Shown: one piece after another, positions 3,492 to 7,868 of the stretch
Layout: the number at the start of each line of letters is the position of its first letter
Numbering within the stretch: the stretch's first letter is position 1
DNA from: Gluconobacter roseus NBRC 3990
GTDB taxonomy: Bacteria; Pseudomonadota; Alphaproteobacteria; Acetobacterales; Acetobacteraceae
DNA: 64,000 bases
Reading direction: 5' to 3'
Assembly (NCBI RefSeq): GCF_006538885.1
Contig: NZ_BJLY01000001.1
Span: 310,001 to 374,000, forward strand
Notes under the pieces: model-generated
Databases searched by the model: none
What the model saw: the letters and a program-made list of their open reading frames with translations, nothing else
Told to the model about the DNA's origin: nothing
Made by a program: the position numbers and the translations under genes

Positions 3492-5017
3492 TGAAAAAAC
3501 TTTTCGCACTCCTGCTGGCGCTTGCCATCAGTCCTGTTTCCGTCGCGCTGGCCGATGCACCTACTGCCTCACAGGACCTGCTCTGGGCATCGGATGGTGA
3601 GGCGAATGTGCCTTACGTCTTCCATGACCCGGCCCATGAATCCCAAATGACCGGTTTCGAGTACGAACTGGTCAACGAGATCGCCTCGCGGATGCACCGG
3701 CAGGCGAAGTTCATCCAGAATGACTGGGATGGGCTGATTCCCGGTCTGTCGCGCGGGCTGTACGGGATGGTGCTGGACGGCATCGAGATGACGCCGGAGC
3801 ACAAGGCGGCCGTGCTGTTCTCGCGCCCCTATTATGTGACGAGCGAGCGCATCATCGTCCGGCATGACCAGAACGGTCTGGATACGATGGATGCCCTCAA
3901 GGGGCATACGGTCGGGACGATCAAGGATACGACGGCCGAGCGGATGCTGCGCCGCCAGGGTGGCTCGAACGTGCGGTCATATGAAGAAGAGACGAATGCG
4001 TTCTCGGATCTGCGCAACGGGCGTCTGGATGCAATCCTGCTCGATGCGCCGATTGCGCTGTATTATGGCAGCATCTCCCCGGATATGAAGCTCGTGGGCG
4101 AACCAATCGGCAGCATGGAATATGGGATCGCCTTCTCGCCGGAGAACCGCGCGCTGCGTGATCAGGTGGATGCGGCGCTGGGCGAGATCATTCAGGACGG
4201 GACGCTGCACCGCATTCTGGCGCGCTGGAGCCTGTGGACGCCGCTGATGGCGAACTACACAGGCGATAACAGCCAGCCGGACATCACACCGACGGAATGG
4301 GACCATTACCGGCAGGCCATGGCGAACACGACTGGCAGCGGCTGGCATGTTCTGGTCCGGCGTTATGTGAGTTTCCTGCCGCTGATCGGGCAGGCGGCGC
4401 TCATGACGCTGGCGGTGTCGGCGCTGGCCATGGTTCTGGCCGTGGCACTCGGGCTTCTGCTGGCGCTGGCCCGGCATTACGGTGCGGCTCCGCTGCGTTT
4501 CGTGGCGGGCGTGTATGTTGAGGTGGTGCGCGGAACGCCGCTGCTGATCCAAGTGCTGTTCATCTTCTATGGACTGCCAGCTTTCGGCATCCGTTTGTCG
4601 CCGTTCATGGCGGGCATGCTGTCTCTGGGCCTGAATTATGCGGCCTATGAGGCGGAAAATTATCGCGCCGGTCTGCTGTCCGTGCCCCGCGGGCAGATGG
4701 AAGCGGCGATTGCGCTGAACATGACGCACTGGCAGGCGCTGCGGCTCGTGATTGTGCCGCAGGCTTTCCGCACCGTCGTGCCGGTCATGACTAACGACTT
4801 CATTTCGCTGCTCAAGGACAGTTCCCTCGTCTCCGTCATCACGCTGACGGAACTGAGCCAGACCTATGTGCGGCTGTCCTCCACCTATTACGATTATTTC
4901 GGAACGGGGATCATGGTCGGCCTGGCCTACCTGCTGCTCGGGCTGCCGTTCGTGCGGCTGGCAAGGATGGCGGAACGGCGGCTGGGTCGTGGGTTTTCAG
5001 GAACCGGGCACCACTGA
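3488..5017 (+). CDS. Fused periplasmic amino acid-binding protein and ABC permease
   Basis: A 509-residue protein joining two functions. Residues 1-22 form a Sec signal (MMKKLFALLLALAISPVSVALA). Residues about 30-250 are a type 3 solute-binding domain (PYVFHDPAHESQMTGFEYEL, TAERMLRRQGG, ILARWSLW). Residues about 285-500 are a PAAT permease with about five membrane spans and the ATPase-contact EAA region, VPRGQMEAAIALNMTHWQAL. It pairs with the ATPase gene it overlaps by 4 bases. Tethering the binding protein to the permease is known in some GlnP-like importers, mainly in Gram-positives. The substrate is probably a polar amino acid; its identity is not visible. Confidence 0.9.
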   Translation: MMKKLFALLLALAISPVSVALADAPTASQDLLWASDGEANVPYVFHDPAHESQMTGFEYELVNEIASRMHRQAKFIQNDWDGLIPGLSRGLYGMVLDGIEMTPEHKAAVLFSRPYYVTSERIIVRHDQNGLDTMDALKGHTVGTIKDTTAERMLRRQGGSNVRSYEEETNAFSDLRNGRLDAILLDAPIALYYGSISPDMKLVGEPIGSMEYGIAFSPENRALRDQVDAALGEIIQDGTLHRILARWSLWTPLMANYTGDNSQPDITPTEWDHYRQAMANTTGSGWHVLVRRYVSFLPLIGQAALMTLAVSALAMVLAVALGLLLALARHYGAAPLRFVAGVYVEVVRGTPLLIQVLFIFYGLPAFGIRLSPFMAGMLSLGLNYAAYEAENYRAGLLSVPRGQMEAAIALNMTHWQALRLVIVPQAFRTVVPVMTNDFISLLKDSSLVSVITLTELSQTYVRLSSTYYDYFGTGIMVGLAYLLLGLPFVRLARMAERRLGRGFSGTGHH

Positions 5018-5036: not shown

Positions 5037-5966
5037 TTAGGCCGGACGGGGAGCGGAAGGGTCGTTGATCAGAGGCGGGACGAGAGTTGACGTGTCCAGC
5101 GTGCCGTCAAATCCCTGACGCAGGACGCGGGACCAGCCGATCATCCAGCGGTCCAGCGTGTCGATGAACTGGGCAGCGTCCGGGTTCTTGTGAACCGACG
5201 CCTTGTTCCAGTACTGCGGCGGGGCGAGCAACTGGCGTGAACCATGTTCGATCGGGGCGACGAGGGTTTCCACCGTTTCGATATGGGCAGTGTTCTTGCC
5301 GGCCACGGCCGCATGATACCAGCCGACATTGATCATCAGGCTCGGGATCGGGAAGCCGAGCGTGCGCATCCGGGAAAATGCGGCCGTGATGAACGGATCG
5401 GTGCTGACGCTCTGGTTTTCGAGGACGGCATTGCTGGTGTAGCTGCATTCCTGAGAGACACCGGGCTGTTCGGAAATATGGGCCGCGTAGTCGCGGTCAT
5501 CATGGCATGGCGTTTCGAGCTGTTCGGCGAGTTCGGCCGGGACGGGCTGCTGCGTGGCGCGCACCACGATCACGCCGGAGACGACGCCGCGATCGGTGCG
5601 GGCCAGGATCTGCTGGGACAGTTCACCATGCGCGCCGCTCCGGGCGGTCAGGATCGGGTGCCAGTCACCCGCCGGAAGCGGGAGGGTGCGGCCGGCGATC
5701 ATGATGCTTCCATGCTGGGCGATGCCCGGATCAGGGACGCCGATCTGGTCTCCTGCTCCGGGTGCGCCCCCCGGTCCGGCAGCAGTCTGGTCGGCCTGCT
5801 GCCCGGCTGACGGTGCTGCGCCAGGCAGGTGCCCCGGAAGCCACGGCATGGCTTTCTTGAGCGCCGGAGTGGGATAGAAGGCGGCCATACCGAGGGCGCC
5901 TACCGTTACGATCACGCTTGTGCGCCACAGGGGCGCGCGCCGCCAGAGCCGTCCGAATGCCGTCAT
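5037..5966 (-). CDS. Membrane-anchored protein of unknown function (third gene of the AAA+ operon)
   Basis: A 309-residue protein I do not recognise. It has one N-terminal hydrophobic segment (TSVIVTVGALGMAAF, about residues 16-30) after a basic stretch, so most of it is predicted periplasmic. Residues 45-80 are a Pro/Gly/Ala-rich linker, followed by a folded region with two cysteines (ETPCHDDRDY and GVSQECSYTS) that could form a disulfide. The last 100 residues include LGFPIPSLMINVGWYHAA and PPQYWNKASVHKNPD. It starts 3 bases after the AAA+ gene's stop, so the two are surely co-transcribed. It may be a periplasmic partner of that ATPase; this is inferred from gene order only. Confidence 0.6.
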   Translation of the reverse strand: MTAFGRLWRRAPLWRTSVIVTVGALGMAAFYPTPALKKAMPWLPGHLPGAAPSAGQQADQTAAGPGGAPGAGDQIGVPDPGIAQHGSIMIAGRTLPLPAGDWHPILTARSGAHGELSQQILARTDRGVVSGVIVVRATQQPVPAELAEQLETPCHDDRDYAAHISEQPGVSQECSYTSNAVLENQSVSTDPFITAAFSRMRTLGFPIPSLMINVGWYHAAVAGKNTAHIETVETLVAPIEHGSRQLLAPPQYWNKASVHKNPDAAQFIDTLDRWMIGWSRVLRQGFDGTLDTSTLVPPLINDPSAPRPA

Positions 5967-5969
5967 GGG

Positions 5970-7244
5970 TCAGTGGCTCATCCGGCCGAGCTGGGTTTCG
6001 GTATCGTTTGCGATTTCGGTGATAACGGTGCCGTCCTCCTGCGTGACGAGACGGACGCGCTTCGCACCCTGCTGACGGGCGACAATGAGGCTTTCGCTGA
6101 CCATGTCCTCGATGGAGCGGACAAGGTCACGTGCGCTGGCGCCGGTGCCGAGGTTCTTCTGCTTGACCATGACCTGGAACAGGACGCCGGCGTCGATGCC
6201 GCCGGTTTCGACATGCAGGCCGTAGCCTTCGATCATGGCTTCAATTTCGAGAGCTGCAACGCGGGCAAGATCCAGTCCGCGCAGGGGGCGGAAGACAAAG
6301 ATGCGGTCCAGACGGTTCAGCACTTCGGGCGCGAAGCCGGATTTGCGCAGGGCCTCGACCGACTCGGCACGCATCTTTTCAGGTTCGTTGGCGAGGCGGT
6401 CGGCGATTTCGGTCAGGGCCTCGGTCGCGACATTGGACGTCAGCATGAAGATCGCGCGGGTGGTCGAAACCTGCTCGCCCGTGGAGGCTTCCGTGACATG
6501 GCCATCGTTCCAGGCGGTGAGGAACTTCTTGAAGACGTCCGGATGGGCTTTTTCGATTTCGTCGAGCAGGACCACGGCATCCGGCTTGTCCTTGAGGCCG
6601 CCGGTTAGCTTGCCGAAGGTGTCCGATCCCACATAACCCTTGGGTGAGCCAAAAAGCTGGGTTGCGGCATGGGCGCTGGACATCTGCGTCATGTCGAAAT
6701 GCAGCAGGGGGCGTTCCATCTGTTTGGCCATCTGCTTGGCCAGATAGGTCTTGCCAGTGCCTGGAGGGCCGGCGAGCAGGAAGATGCCGACGGGCTTGCC
6801 GCGGACCTGAAGCGCCAGGCGGCGGCGCATCTGCTGGGCGATGTCTTCGCAGACCTGGTCCTGTCCGATGACACGGGCGCGCAGGGACGCGGCCAGTTCG
6901 TCGGCGTCGATGACGGTTTCGCGCTGTTCGCGGGCCATGAGCTCTTCAAGGGCTCCGCGGTTTGTCAGACGGCTGAGAACATCCATGATGAGACCTTTCC
7001 TGCGGCGCAGTCCGCGACGCGCCAGTTTTTCGGCTGACGTTTCATACGCCAGTCCCGTGACTGCCAGAAGTGCGCTGATGCCTGCCAGCGGAAGATAGAA
7101 ACGCCGTCCCCATTCGATGGCGGCCCACAGCCCGTTCAGCGACAGGTGTAGCATGACCGCGACCTGAATCACGGCCAGAATGAGGAAGGCCGCCATCATC
7201 AGCGGCATGGCCCGGTTGAGCATGGGTACGAGAGACTTGAACAC
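5970..7244 (-). CDS. Membrane-anchored single-module Clp-type AAA+ ATPase
   Basis: A 424-residue protein. Two hydrophobic segments (about residues 15-36 and 49-66) anchor it. The AAA+ module from about 120 resembles the second ATPase module of ClpA/ClpB: Walker A GPPGTGKT (159-166), substrate-pore motif GYVG (203-206), Walker B VVLLDEIEKAHPDV (Asp228-Glu229), sensor-1 FMLTSN, an arginine-finger region VLNRLDRIFVF, and sensor-2-like GASARDL near residue 370. No N-domain, first ATPase module or ClpP-binding IGF/IGL loop is visible, so partnership with ClpP is unlikely. The predicted job is ATP-driven threading or remodelling of proteins at the inner membrane. It lies 12 bases after one small membrane-protein gene and 3 before another. 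Confidence 0.8.
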   Translation of the reverse strand: MFKSLVPMLNRAMPLMMAAFLILAVIQVAVMLHLSLNGLWAAIEWGRRFYLPLAGISALLAVTGLAYETSAEKLARRGLRRRKGLIMDVLSRLTNRGALEELMAREQRETVIDADELAASLRARVIGQDQVCEDIAQQMRRRLALQVRGKPVGIFLLAGPPGTGKTYLAKQMAKQMERPLLHFDMTQMSSAHAATQLFGSPKGYVGSDTFGKLTGGLKDKPDAVVLLDEIEKAHPDVFKKFLTAWNDGHVTEASTGEQVSTTRAIFMLTSNVATEALTEIADRLANEPEKMRAESVEALRKSGFAPEVLNRLDRIFVFRPLRGLDLARVAALEIEAMIEGYGLHVETGGIDAGVLFQVMVKQKNLGTGASARDLVRSIEDMVSESLIVARQQGAKRVRLVTQEDGTVITEIANDTETQLGRMSH

Positions 7245-7256
7245 CGGGGCGGTTCC

Positions 7257-7868
7257 TTACTGGACGATCACGTTGAGCAGGACGCGCTGGTCAAGCGTCG
7301 TCAGGGCGGGCAGGGCCTGAGGGCCAAGTGCCGTCAGCGCGCCGATGGTCAGGGCCGGTGCGCGAGGCATGCTGACGGGAGCGATAAGGATCTGCCCGGC
7401 TTCGACGATGGGAATAACCAGATGCTGGAACTTGCCTGTCAGAATGACGCGCTGAGTCAGGCCCGAGACCGTAACATCGATTGTCTGTCCCACAGCGCCG
7501 GAAGCATCCAGCACCGGCATTTCCACCAGGCGCATCTTGCCGTCCTTGACTGCCGCAAGGATGCGGGCGCGGTCGGCAGGGCTGAAGCCGCTTTTGGCAA
7601 GGGCGGAAGGGGCTTTTGCGGGGGAGAGCATGGACAGCTGGACGGCGGCGGTCTGCGCGGCCGGAACGGCCGGGGTGTTCTGGGCCGGAGGGGCAATTGC
7701 CGGGGCAGGTGGTGTGGCCGTGTTGTGGGTATAGAAAAAGGCACCGGCCCCGACCGTCAGGGCCGCGATCAGTCCGCCTCCGCCCCACAGCGCCCGGCTT
7801 CTGGACGCGGGTTCGGATGGCAGGGGCTGCGGGCGCGGCTCTGGACGGGGCTCTGGCTGGACAGTCAT
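7257..7868 (-). CDS. Single-span membrane protein of unknown function (first gene of the AAA+ operon)
   Basis: A 203-residue protein not matching a family I know. It opens with a Pro/Glu/Arg-rich cytoplasmic segment (MTVQPEPRPEPRPQPLP), then one membrane span (about residues 30-47), a Pro/Ala linker and a compact C-terminal domain (FSPADRARILAAVKDGKMRL, MPVLDASGAVGQTIDVTVSG). The C-terminal half looks like a small beta-rich periplasmic domain; that is a guess. It begins the operon with the AAA+ ATPase and the 309-residue protein. The 5' region (7869-7992) faces the rimP promoter. Confidence 0.6.
   Translation of the reverse strand: MTVQPEPRPEPRPQPLPSEPASRSRALWGGGGLIAALTVGAGAFFYTHNTATPPAPAIAPPAQNTPAVPAAQTAAVQLSMLSPAKAPSALAKSGFSPADRARILAAVKDGKMRLVEMPVLDASGAVGQTIDVTVSGLTQRVILTGKFQHLVIPIVEAGQILIAPVSMPRAPALTIGALTALGPQALPALTTLDQRVLLNVIVQ

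Follow-up and report, generated by a model that had tools for sequence, protein, structure and literature searches.

What kind of system is encoded by the three minus-strand genes packed into positions 5037-7868 of a 64,000-nucleotide stretch of the Gluconobacter roseus NBRC 3990 genome? This stretch (positions 310,001 to 374,000 of contig NZ_BJLY01000001.1, hereafter the window) lies on contig 1 of a genome of 2.88 Mb, and the genes, called here A, B and C in the order in which they are read, are separated by gaps of 12 and 3 bases. An earlier note, made from the sequence alone, took them for a tight leftward operon, which the coordinates of the open reading frames confirm. The three-gene system A-B-C is real and conserved, and its ATPase is a distinct member of the Clp clade; in three genomes in which A is missing from the locus the catalytic residues of this ATPase have been lost as well. 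The role that the note had proposed, extraction or remodelling of membrane or periplasmic proteins, would fit the anatomy described below.

Protein B and its neighbours A and C

The Pfam model AAA_2 matches B at residues 150-314 (E 2.3e-37), and B shares with the second nucleotide-binding module (NBD2) of ClpB, ClpA and ClpC the Walker A and B motifs, the GYVG pore loop, the sensors and the arginine finger. E229 is taken as the catalytic residue, N271 as sensor 1, R311 as the arginine finger and R372 as sensor 2. Nine motif positions were checked and are constant in all 56 live B homologues except for one Y-to-F change at 204, while three of the 59 homologues have lost most of the motor motifs. 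The description of B as a membrane-anchored, single-module Clp-type ATPase with its motifs kept is borne out by the AAA_2 match, by these positions and by two hydrophobic peaks at residues 15-33 and 49-67. With a looser cut, two such peaks are present in 48 of the 59 homologues, three in 7, one in 2, and four and five in 1 each.

B differs from the known Clp proteins in its single module, its N-terminal hydrophobic hairpin and its separate clade. ClpB contains two AAA+ modules, an N-domain and a middle domain, and ClpA and ClpC combine two modules with a ClpP-binding IGL/IGF loop. B consists of one module in 424 residues, and no ClpP-binding tripeptide was seen in it by eye. The top NCBIfam rows for B are the second modules of ClpB (173 of 1232 bits, matching only profile positions 533-843 of 853) and ClpA (165 of 993 bits), both far below cut-off. 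Two long Clp-type frames of the same genome, of 891 and 793 amino acids, are 39% and 35% identical to B. In a quick, midpoint-rooted tree with three long branches flagged, 20 rows of the B family and 20 second modules of Clp proteins, the latter picked from 82, are split by a branch with an SH-like approximate likelihood ratio test (SH-aLRT) value of 100; B is its own clade beside the Clp second modules.

FtsH and Lon-B are membrane AAA+ proteases that carry the protease domain in the same chain. Like them, B is predicted to be an AAA+ ring anchored in the inner membrane, but no protease domain is visible in it, as the earlier note had stated, and the matches of the Lon and FtsH models are confined to its AAA part (residues 142-234 and 151-179, respectively). 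No peptidase family is found for B among the 25 of 40 Pfam rows listed, and no protease domain is visible in A or C. The mitochondrial protein SKD3 (human CLPB) is a single-module disaggregase of the intermembrane space that acts without a protease and carries ankyrin repeats; it is not known to have A or C partners. B resembles SKD3 in having one ClpB-type module and no visible protease (PDB 7ttr, 7us2, 8zrs). In the PDB search the solved chains closest to B are ClpE, ClpB and ClpC, with SKD3 lower down.

No family match was obtained for A and C in Pfam, NCBIfam or PADLOC, and PHROGs gave a single weak row for A (E 0.014) and none for C. Searches of the PDB with the profiles of both proteins returned nothing convincing, the sole rows being FAM155A in the N-terminal part (E 0.04 or worse), and no named system covering all three proteins was found by the profile check. 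Each protein has a single hydrophobic segment, as expected of the bitopic proteins that had been proposed, with lower scores in the window copies (1.52 for A and 1.57 for C; Kyte-Doolittle, 19-residue window) than the medians of their homologues (1.76 over 24 A proteins, 1.67 over 59 C proteins). The two cysteines noticed before in C are exactly two, 154 and 174; they are nearly invariant in 35 rows, and two cysteines past residue 40 are found in 56 of 59 C homologues. The AlphaFold model of A alone is unusable (predicted local distance difference test score, pLDDT, 46.8). The predicted periplasmic domain of C gave a good model, with a modest and tentative resemblance to the Mog1/PsbP fold. 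This fold is that of DcrB and of the Eag chaperones (DUF1795) of type VI secretion systems; C differs from them in being linked to an AAA+ gene and shows no sequence match in the PDB search.

Paralogues of the periplasmic domain of C are present elsewhere in four operon-bearing genomes (L255:8630-9685, L252:8124-9068, L253:7275-8267 and L254:2145-3452). In genome G062, which yielded no B, several C-like domains lie at L250:6077-8811 and L251:4927-6918, in two adjacent genes and a two-copy protein, with an efflux-type gene nearby (by eye). Within the stretches examined, no A or B lies beside the paralogues at L250-L255.

Linkage of the three genes within and beyond the order

In a sample of 100 genomes and 34 genera of the order, B was detected at E 1e-60 or better in 58 genomes (18 genera) and C at E 1e-5 or better in 60 genomes (20 genera); the search profiles were partly built from the same loci, so that those rows are not independent detections. 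Two genomes with C, G038 and G062, fell outside the first B count. G038 proved to have a diverged B next to its C, and G062 showed only C paralogues in the stretches examined. There are therefore 59 carriers of B, and no B was found in 41 of the 100 genomes. C is adjacent to B in 59/59 carriers and A in 56/59, and the order A-B-C on one strand is kept in all 56 loci that bear A. Since the three genes are conserved together with their order, the operon is not due to chance.

The gene rimP lies within the examined stretch in 53 of the 59 carriers. The six carriers without it are G049 and those of the five loci L039-L043, where none of the four genes that flank the operon in the window was found, bar a weak ABC match in L043. 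The operon is thus kept at relocated loci, indicating that the linkage is more than frozen synteny. In G021 and G071 the C coding sequence is broken into different frames (L037:10759-11788 and L265:7022-7965), though the B motifs are intact, and G021 has the beginning of B out of frame as well; decay or sequencing error would account for these breaks.

Two remote loci repeat this arrangement, so that the gene-order check also favoured the earlier view that the neighbours belong with the ATPase. L034 is a second A-B-C version, with a B 48% identical and A-like and C-like neighbours, found in 1/35 genomes of its genus. L218, in the same phylum, keeps the order A-B-C and was found in 1/25 genomes of its genus and 1/248 of its family; its genome is taken to be that of a Pseudomonas relative, since a protein bearing a Pseudomonas name was used to find its B. 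In single pairwise profile-profile runs, which are not database searches, the A profile of the acetic group matched the A of L218 (E 4.9e-8, 121 columns) and of L034 (E 9.8e-7, 89 columns), and the C profile matched the C of L034 (E 8.1e-13) and of L218 (E 2e-6) over 205 columns each. The two distant A proteins are 41% identical over 165 columns, and against family models the distant A and C of both loci gave weak rows only (best E 0.0061).

The B family is wider than the earlier note had noticed and extends to other Proteobacteria. Among the best 120 of 1683 matches, further relatives, mostly of about 416 residues and 54-59% identical to the B of L034, carry the names Burkholderia, Paraburkholderia, Trinickia, Caballeronia, Pseudomonas and Smithella. 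Despite these names, a family taken for Burkholderiaceae (chosen via a Burkholderia multivorans gene) gave 0/198 and 0/392. The class sample contained one positive genome out of 289, the window's own, and the phylum sample two out of 398, both of the window's own family; strict cut-offs were used in these samples and few candidates per genome were scored, so that absence is weak evidence there. When genome contigs were scanned with the B alignment, the best 80 loci were Clp-type modules of 32-39% identity. Plasmid scans with the distant L034 version of C and the distant L218 version of A gave no matches, and the scan with B relatives gave one good place, on a Microvirga plasmid (L131:11499-13122), where no recognisable A or C lies beside the B relative. 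The small gene just upstream of it is ASCH-like by eye.

This Microvirga relative, together with the alignment of B with the single-module SKD3 chains, would agree with B acting alone as a membrane-tethered disaggregase of the SKD3 kind, A and C being merely co-transcribed. We consider this improbable, given that C is linked to B in 59/59 cases and A in 56/56 live cases, at relocated and remote loci too.

Beside the A-B-C genes of L034 (L034:4597-8006) there are a HlyC-family acyltransferase gene (PF02794, E 1.4e-30), one that combines phosphoribosyltransferase-like and PQQ-type propeller domains, and one gene of no assigned family. The HlyC search in the own genome gave no match, though the control was likewise unmatched.

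A mobile conflict or defence module, later fixed in acetic acid bacteria, could account for such company and for the sporadic occurrence outside the order (1/35 genomes of one genus for the L034 type, 1/248 in another family of the phylum), and B matches the PADLOC models PDC-M37B (1e-24) and DolB (2e-20), among others. These matches cover the AAA core only, and A and C have none in PADLOC. The usual place is fixed, as rimP is nearby in most carriers; of 147 matching phage records none covers 80% of the query and all are below 60% identity, none of the best 80 loci in viral contigs exceeds 40% identity, and these phage and viral matches are of the Clp type. A defence origin is accordingly the least probable of the explanations considered here, and a very unlikely one.

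Joint loss of A and the motor residues

In G099, G091 and G038, B and C are found at the usual place and A, sought at the locus only, is missing: the space between B and rimP (about 164, 238 and 202 bases, respectively) is too short for it. In the B of these genomes, in the same order, E229 is replaced by G, N and G, N271 by S, P and I, R311 by H, Q and L, and R372 by H, H and K. Two of them lack the pore loop and the third has an altered one, and the Walker A lysine is kept in all three. All four residues are retained in 56/56 B proteins whose locus bears A (Fisher's test for A absence against motor loss, 3e-5, ignoring kinship). This joint loss had been overlooked in the earlier note, whose interpretation is partly supported.

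The three A-less genomes are small (1.9-2.2 Mb). Their dead B frames contain no internal stops, against mean neutral expectations, at equal distance, of 10.1, 12.7 and 9.0 for G099, G091 and G038, and none of 2000 simulated runs of neutral substitution was stop-free in any of the three cases; the cytoplasmic tail of C is also preserved beside dead B. The persistence of open B and C frames after the loss of A, E229, sensor 1 and R311 could mean that the core is a B-C membrane scaffold that does not depend on ATP, and that ATP work with A is an added function dropped by some lineages. However, dead B evolves very fast and may be on its way out, and the catalytic residues checked are kept in 56 of the 59 carriers; we regard the scaffold as possible, though doubtful.

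Dead B has end branches of 3.75, 9.53 and 10, where the median is 0.028, and such long branches make the B tree unsafe. On a NusA tree of 26 genomes at least two changes are required. Comparison of G099 with its genus-mate G080 gave synonymous divergences (dS) of 2.4 and 3.2 for B and C, near saturation, against 0.63 for nusA, and in the C tree G099 falls outside its genus-mates. The B-C stretch of G099 (L035:8167-10394) possibly came by transfer from another lineage, and its synonymous contrast with nusA hints at such a replacement. For this reason repeated independent loss is not claimed: that A and the catalytic residues are lost together is a firm observation, but the number of events behind it is uncertain.

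The locus and a proposed inner-membrane machine

The operon lies in the first 14 kb of the window and is flanked on one side by a plus-strand ABC transporter operon, glutamine-type by eye, which ends at 5017, and on the other by rimP, nusA and infB (also identified by eye), on the plus strand from 8085. An Rfam search at the operon gave no match, and a simple scan upstream of A revealed no sigma-70-like site. The nearest database proteins carry Gluconobacter names, with annotations that include "AAA family ATPase", "chaperone-like protein" and "Clp protease ATP-binding subunit" besides hypothetical ones; many entries of B have 417 residues, seven fewer than the 424 of the frame used here.

Table 1. 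Features of the A-B-C operon, in window coordinates.
Feature	Position	Strand	Remarks
Gene A	7257..7868	-	203 aa, ATG start; weak N-terminal hydrophobic segment at about residues 27-45, remainder predicted periplasmic
A residues 112-203	7260..7535	-	Part conserved with the distant A of L034 and L218 (hhalign, 89 and 121 columns)
Gene B	5970..7244	-	424 aa, GTG start; single-module Clp-type AAA+ ATPase, N-terminal hydrophobic pair
B residues 15-67	7044..7202	-	Predicted membrane hairpin, two hydrophobic segments
B Walker A GPPGTGKT, residues 159-166	6747..6770	-	
B pore loop GYVG, residues 203-206	6627..6638	-	
B Walker B LLDE, residues 226-229	6558..6569	-	E229 lost in 3/3 A-less homologues
B arginine finger R311	6312..6314	-	Lost in 3/3 A-less homologues
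Gene C	5037..5966	-	309 aa, ATG start; single N-terminal hydrophobic helix between a short cytoplasmic tail and a large periplasmic domain (both predicted)
C residues 7-15 LWRRAPLWR	5922..5948	-	Highly conserved, predicted cytoplasmic side, adjoins membrane helix; pattern in 56/59
C residues 95-102 LPLPAGDW	5661..5684	-	Periplasmic-domain motif; P96, L97, P98, G100 and W102 invariant, 35 rows
C residues 154-174	5445..5507	-	Bounded by two nearly invariant cysteines; possible disulfide

The explanation that we prefer, with about an even chance of being right, is that A, B and C make up a single machine of the inner membrane: a membrane-anchored AAA+ remodeller devoid of protease, with C docked to it and A serving its ATP-driven work. 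Its ring assembly, topology, docking, pulling, client and all its activity are what we infer from the features listed above. B would assemble into an AAA+ ring that its two-helix hairpin anchors at the cytoplasmic face; the aromatic pore loop would pull on proteins and, since B has no protease of its own, clients would be released remodelled or extracted. C may dock to B through its cytoplasmic LWRRAPLWR tail and place the Mog1/PsbP-like domain with its cysteine pair in the periplasm, where it would hold or sense the client. This tail lies on the predicted side of B and is kept beside dead B, which favours docking over a tag to be threaded. A would be a second membrane-anchored periplasmic protein, needed only during motor activity as a client receptor or activator.

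Eag chaperones, which are of the Mog1-like kind, are reported to handle transmembrane segments, and by analogy a role of C as holder of extracted transmembrane segments would fit. Only tentatively can the proposal be widened to a trans-envelope AAA+ machine in which a cytoplasmic Clp ring would be joined across the membrane to two periplasmic subunits, A would be obligate for catalysis and B-C would persist as an ATP-independent pseudo-ATPase complex in the three small genomes.

No description of the three-gene system was found among the entries listed by searches of the open-access literature. In the main texts of two Gluconobacter knockout papers (PMC8602642 and PMC12041372), "Clp" is absent and the AAA term was not found.

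The quality control of inner-membrane proteins in bacteria is usually credited to membrane proteases. If the proposed machine is true, a Clp-type motor without protease and with two periplasmic partners would be another ATP-driven route acting on proteins of the membrane or periplasm, and this in bacteria of industrial use that carry their oxidases in that same membrane. The natural copies with a dead motor would offer a comparison for the role of A and for that of B and C without ATP.
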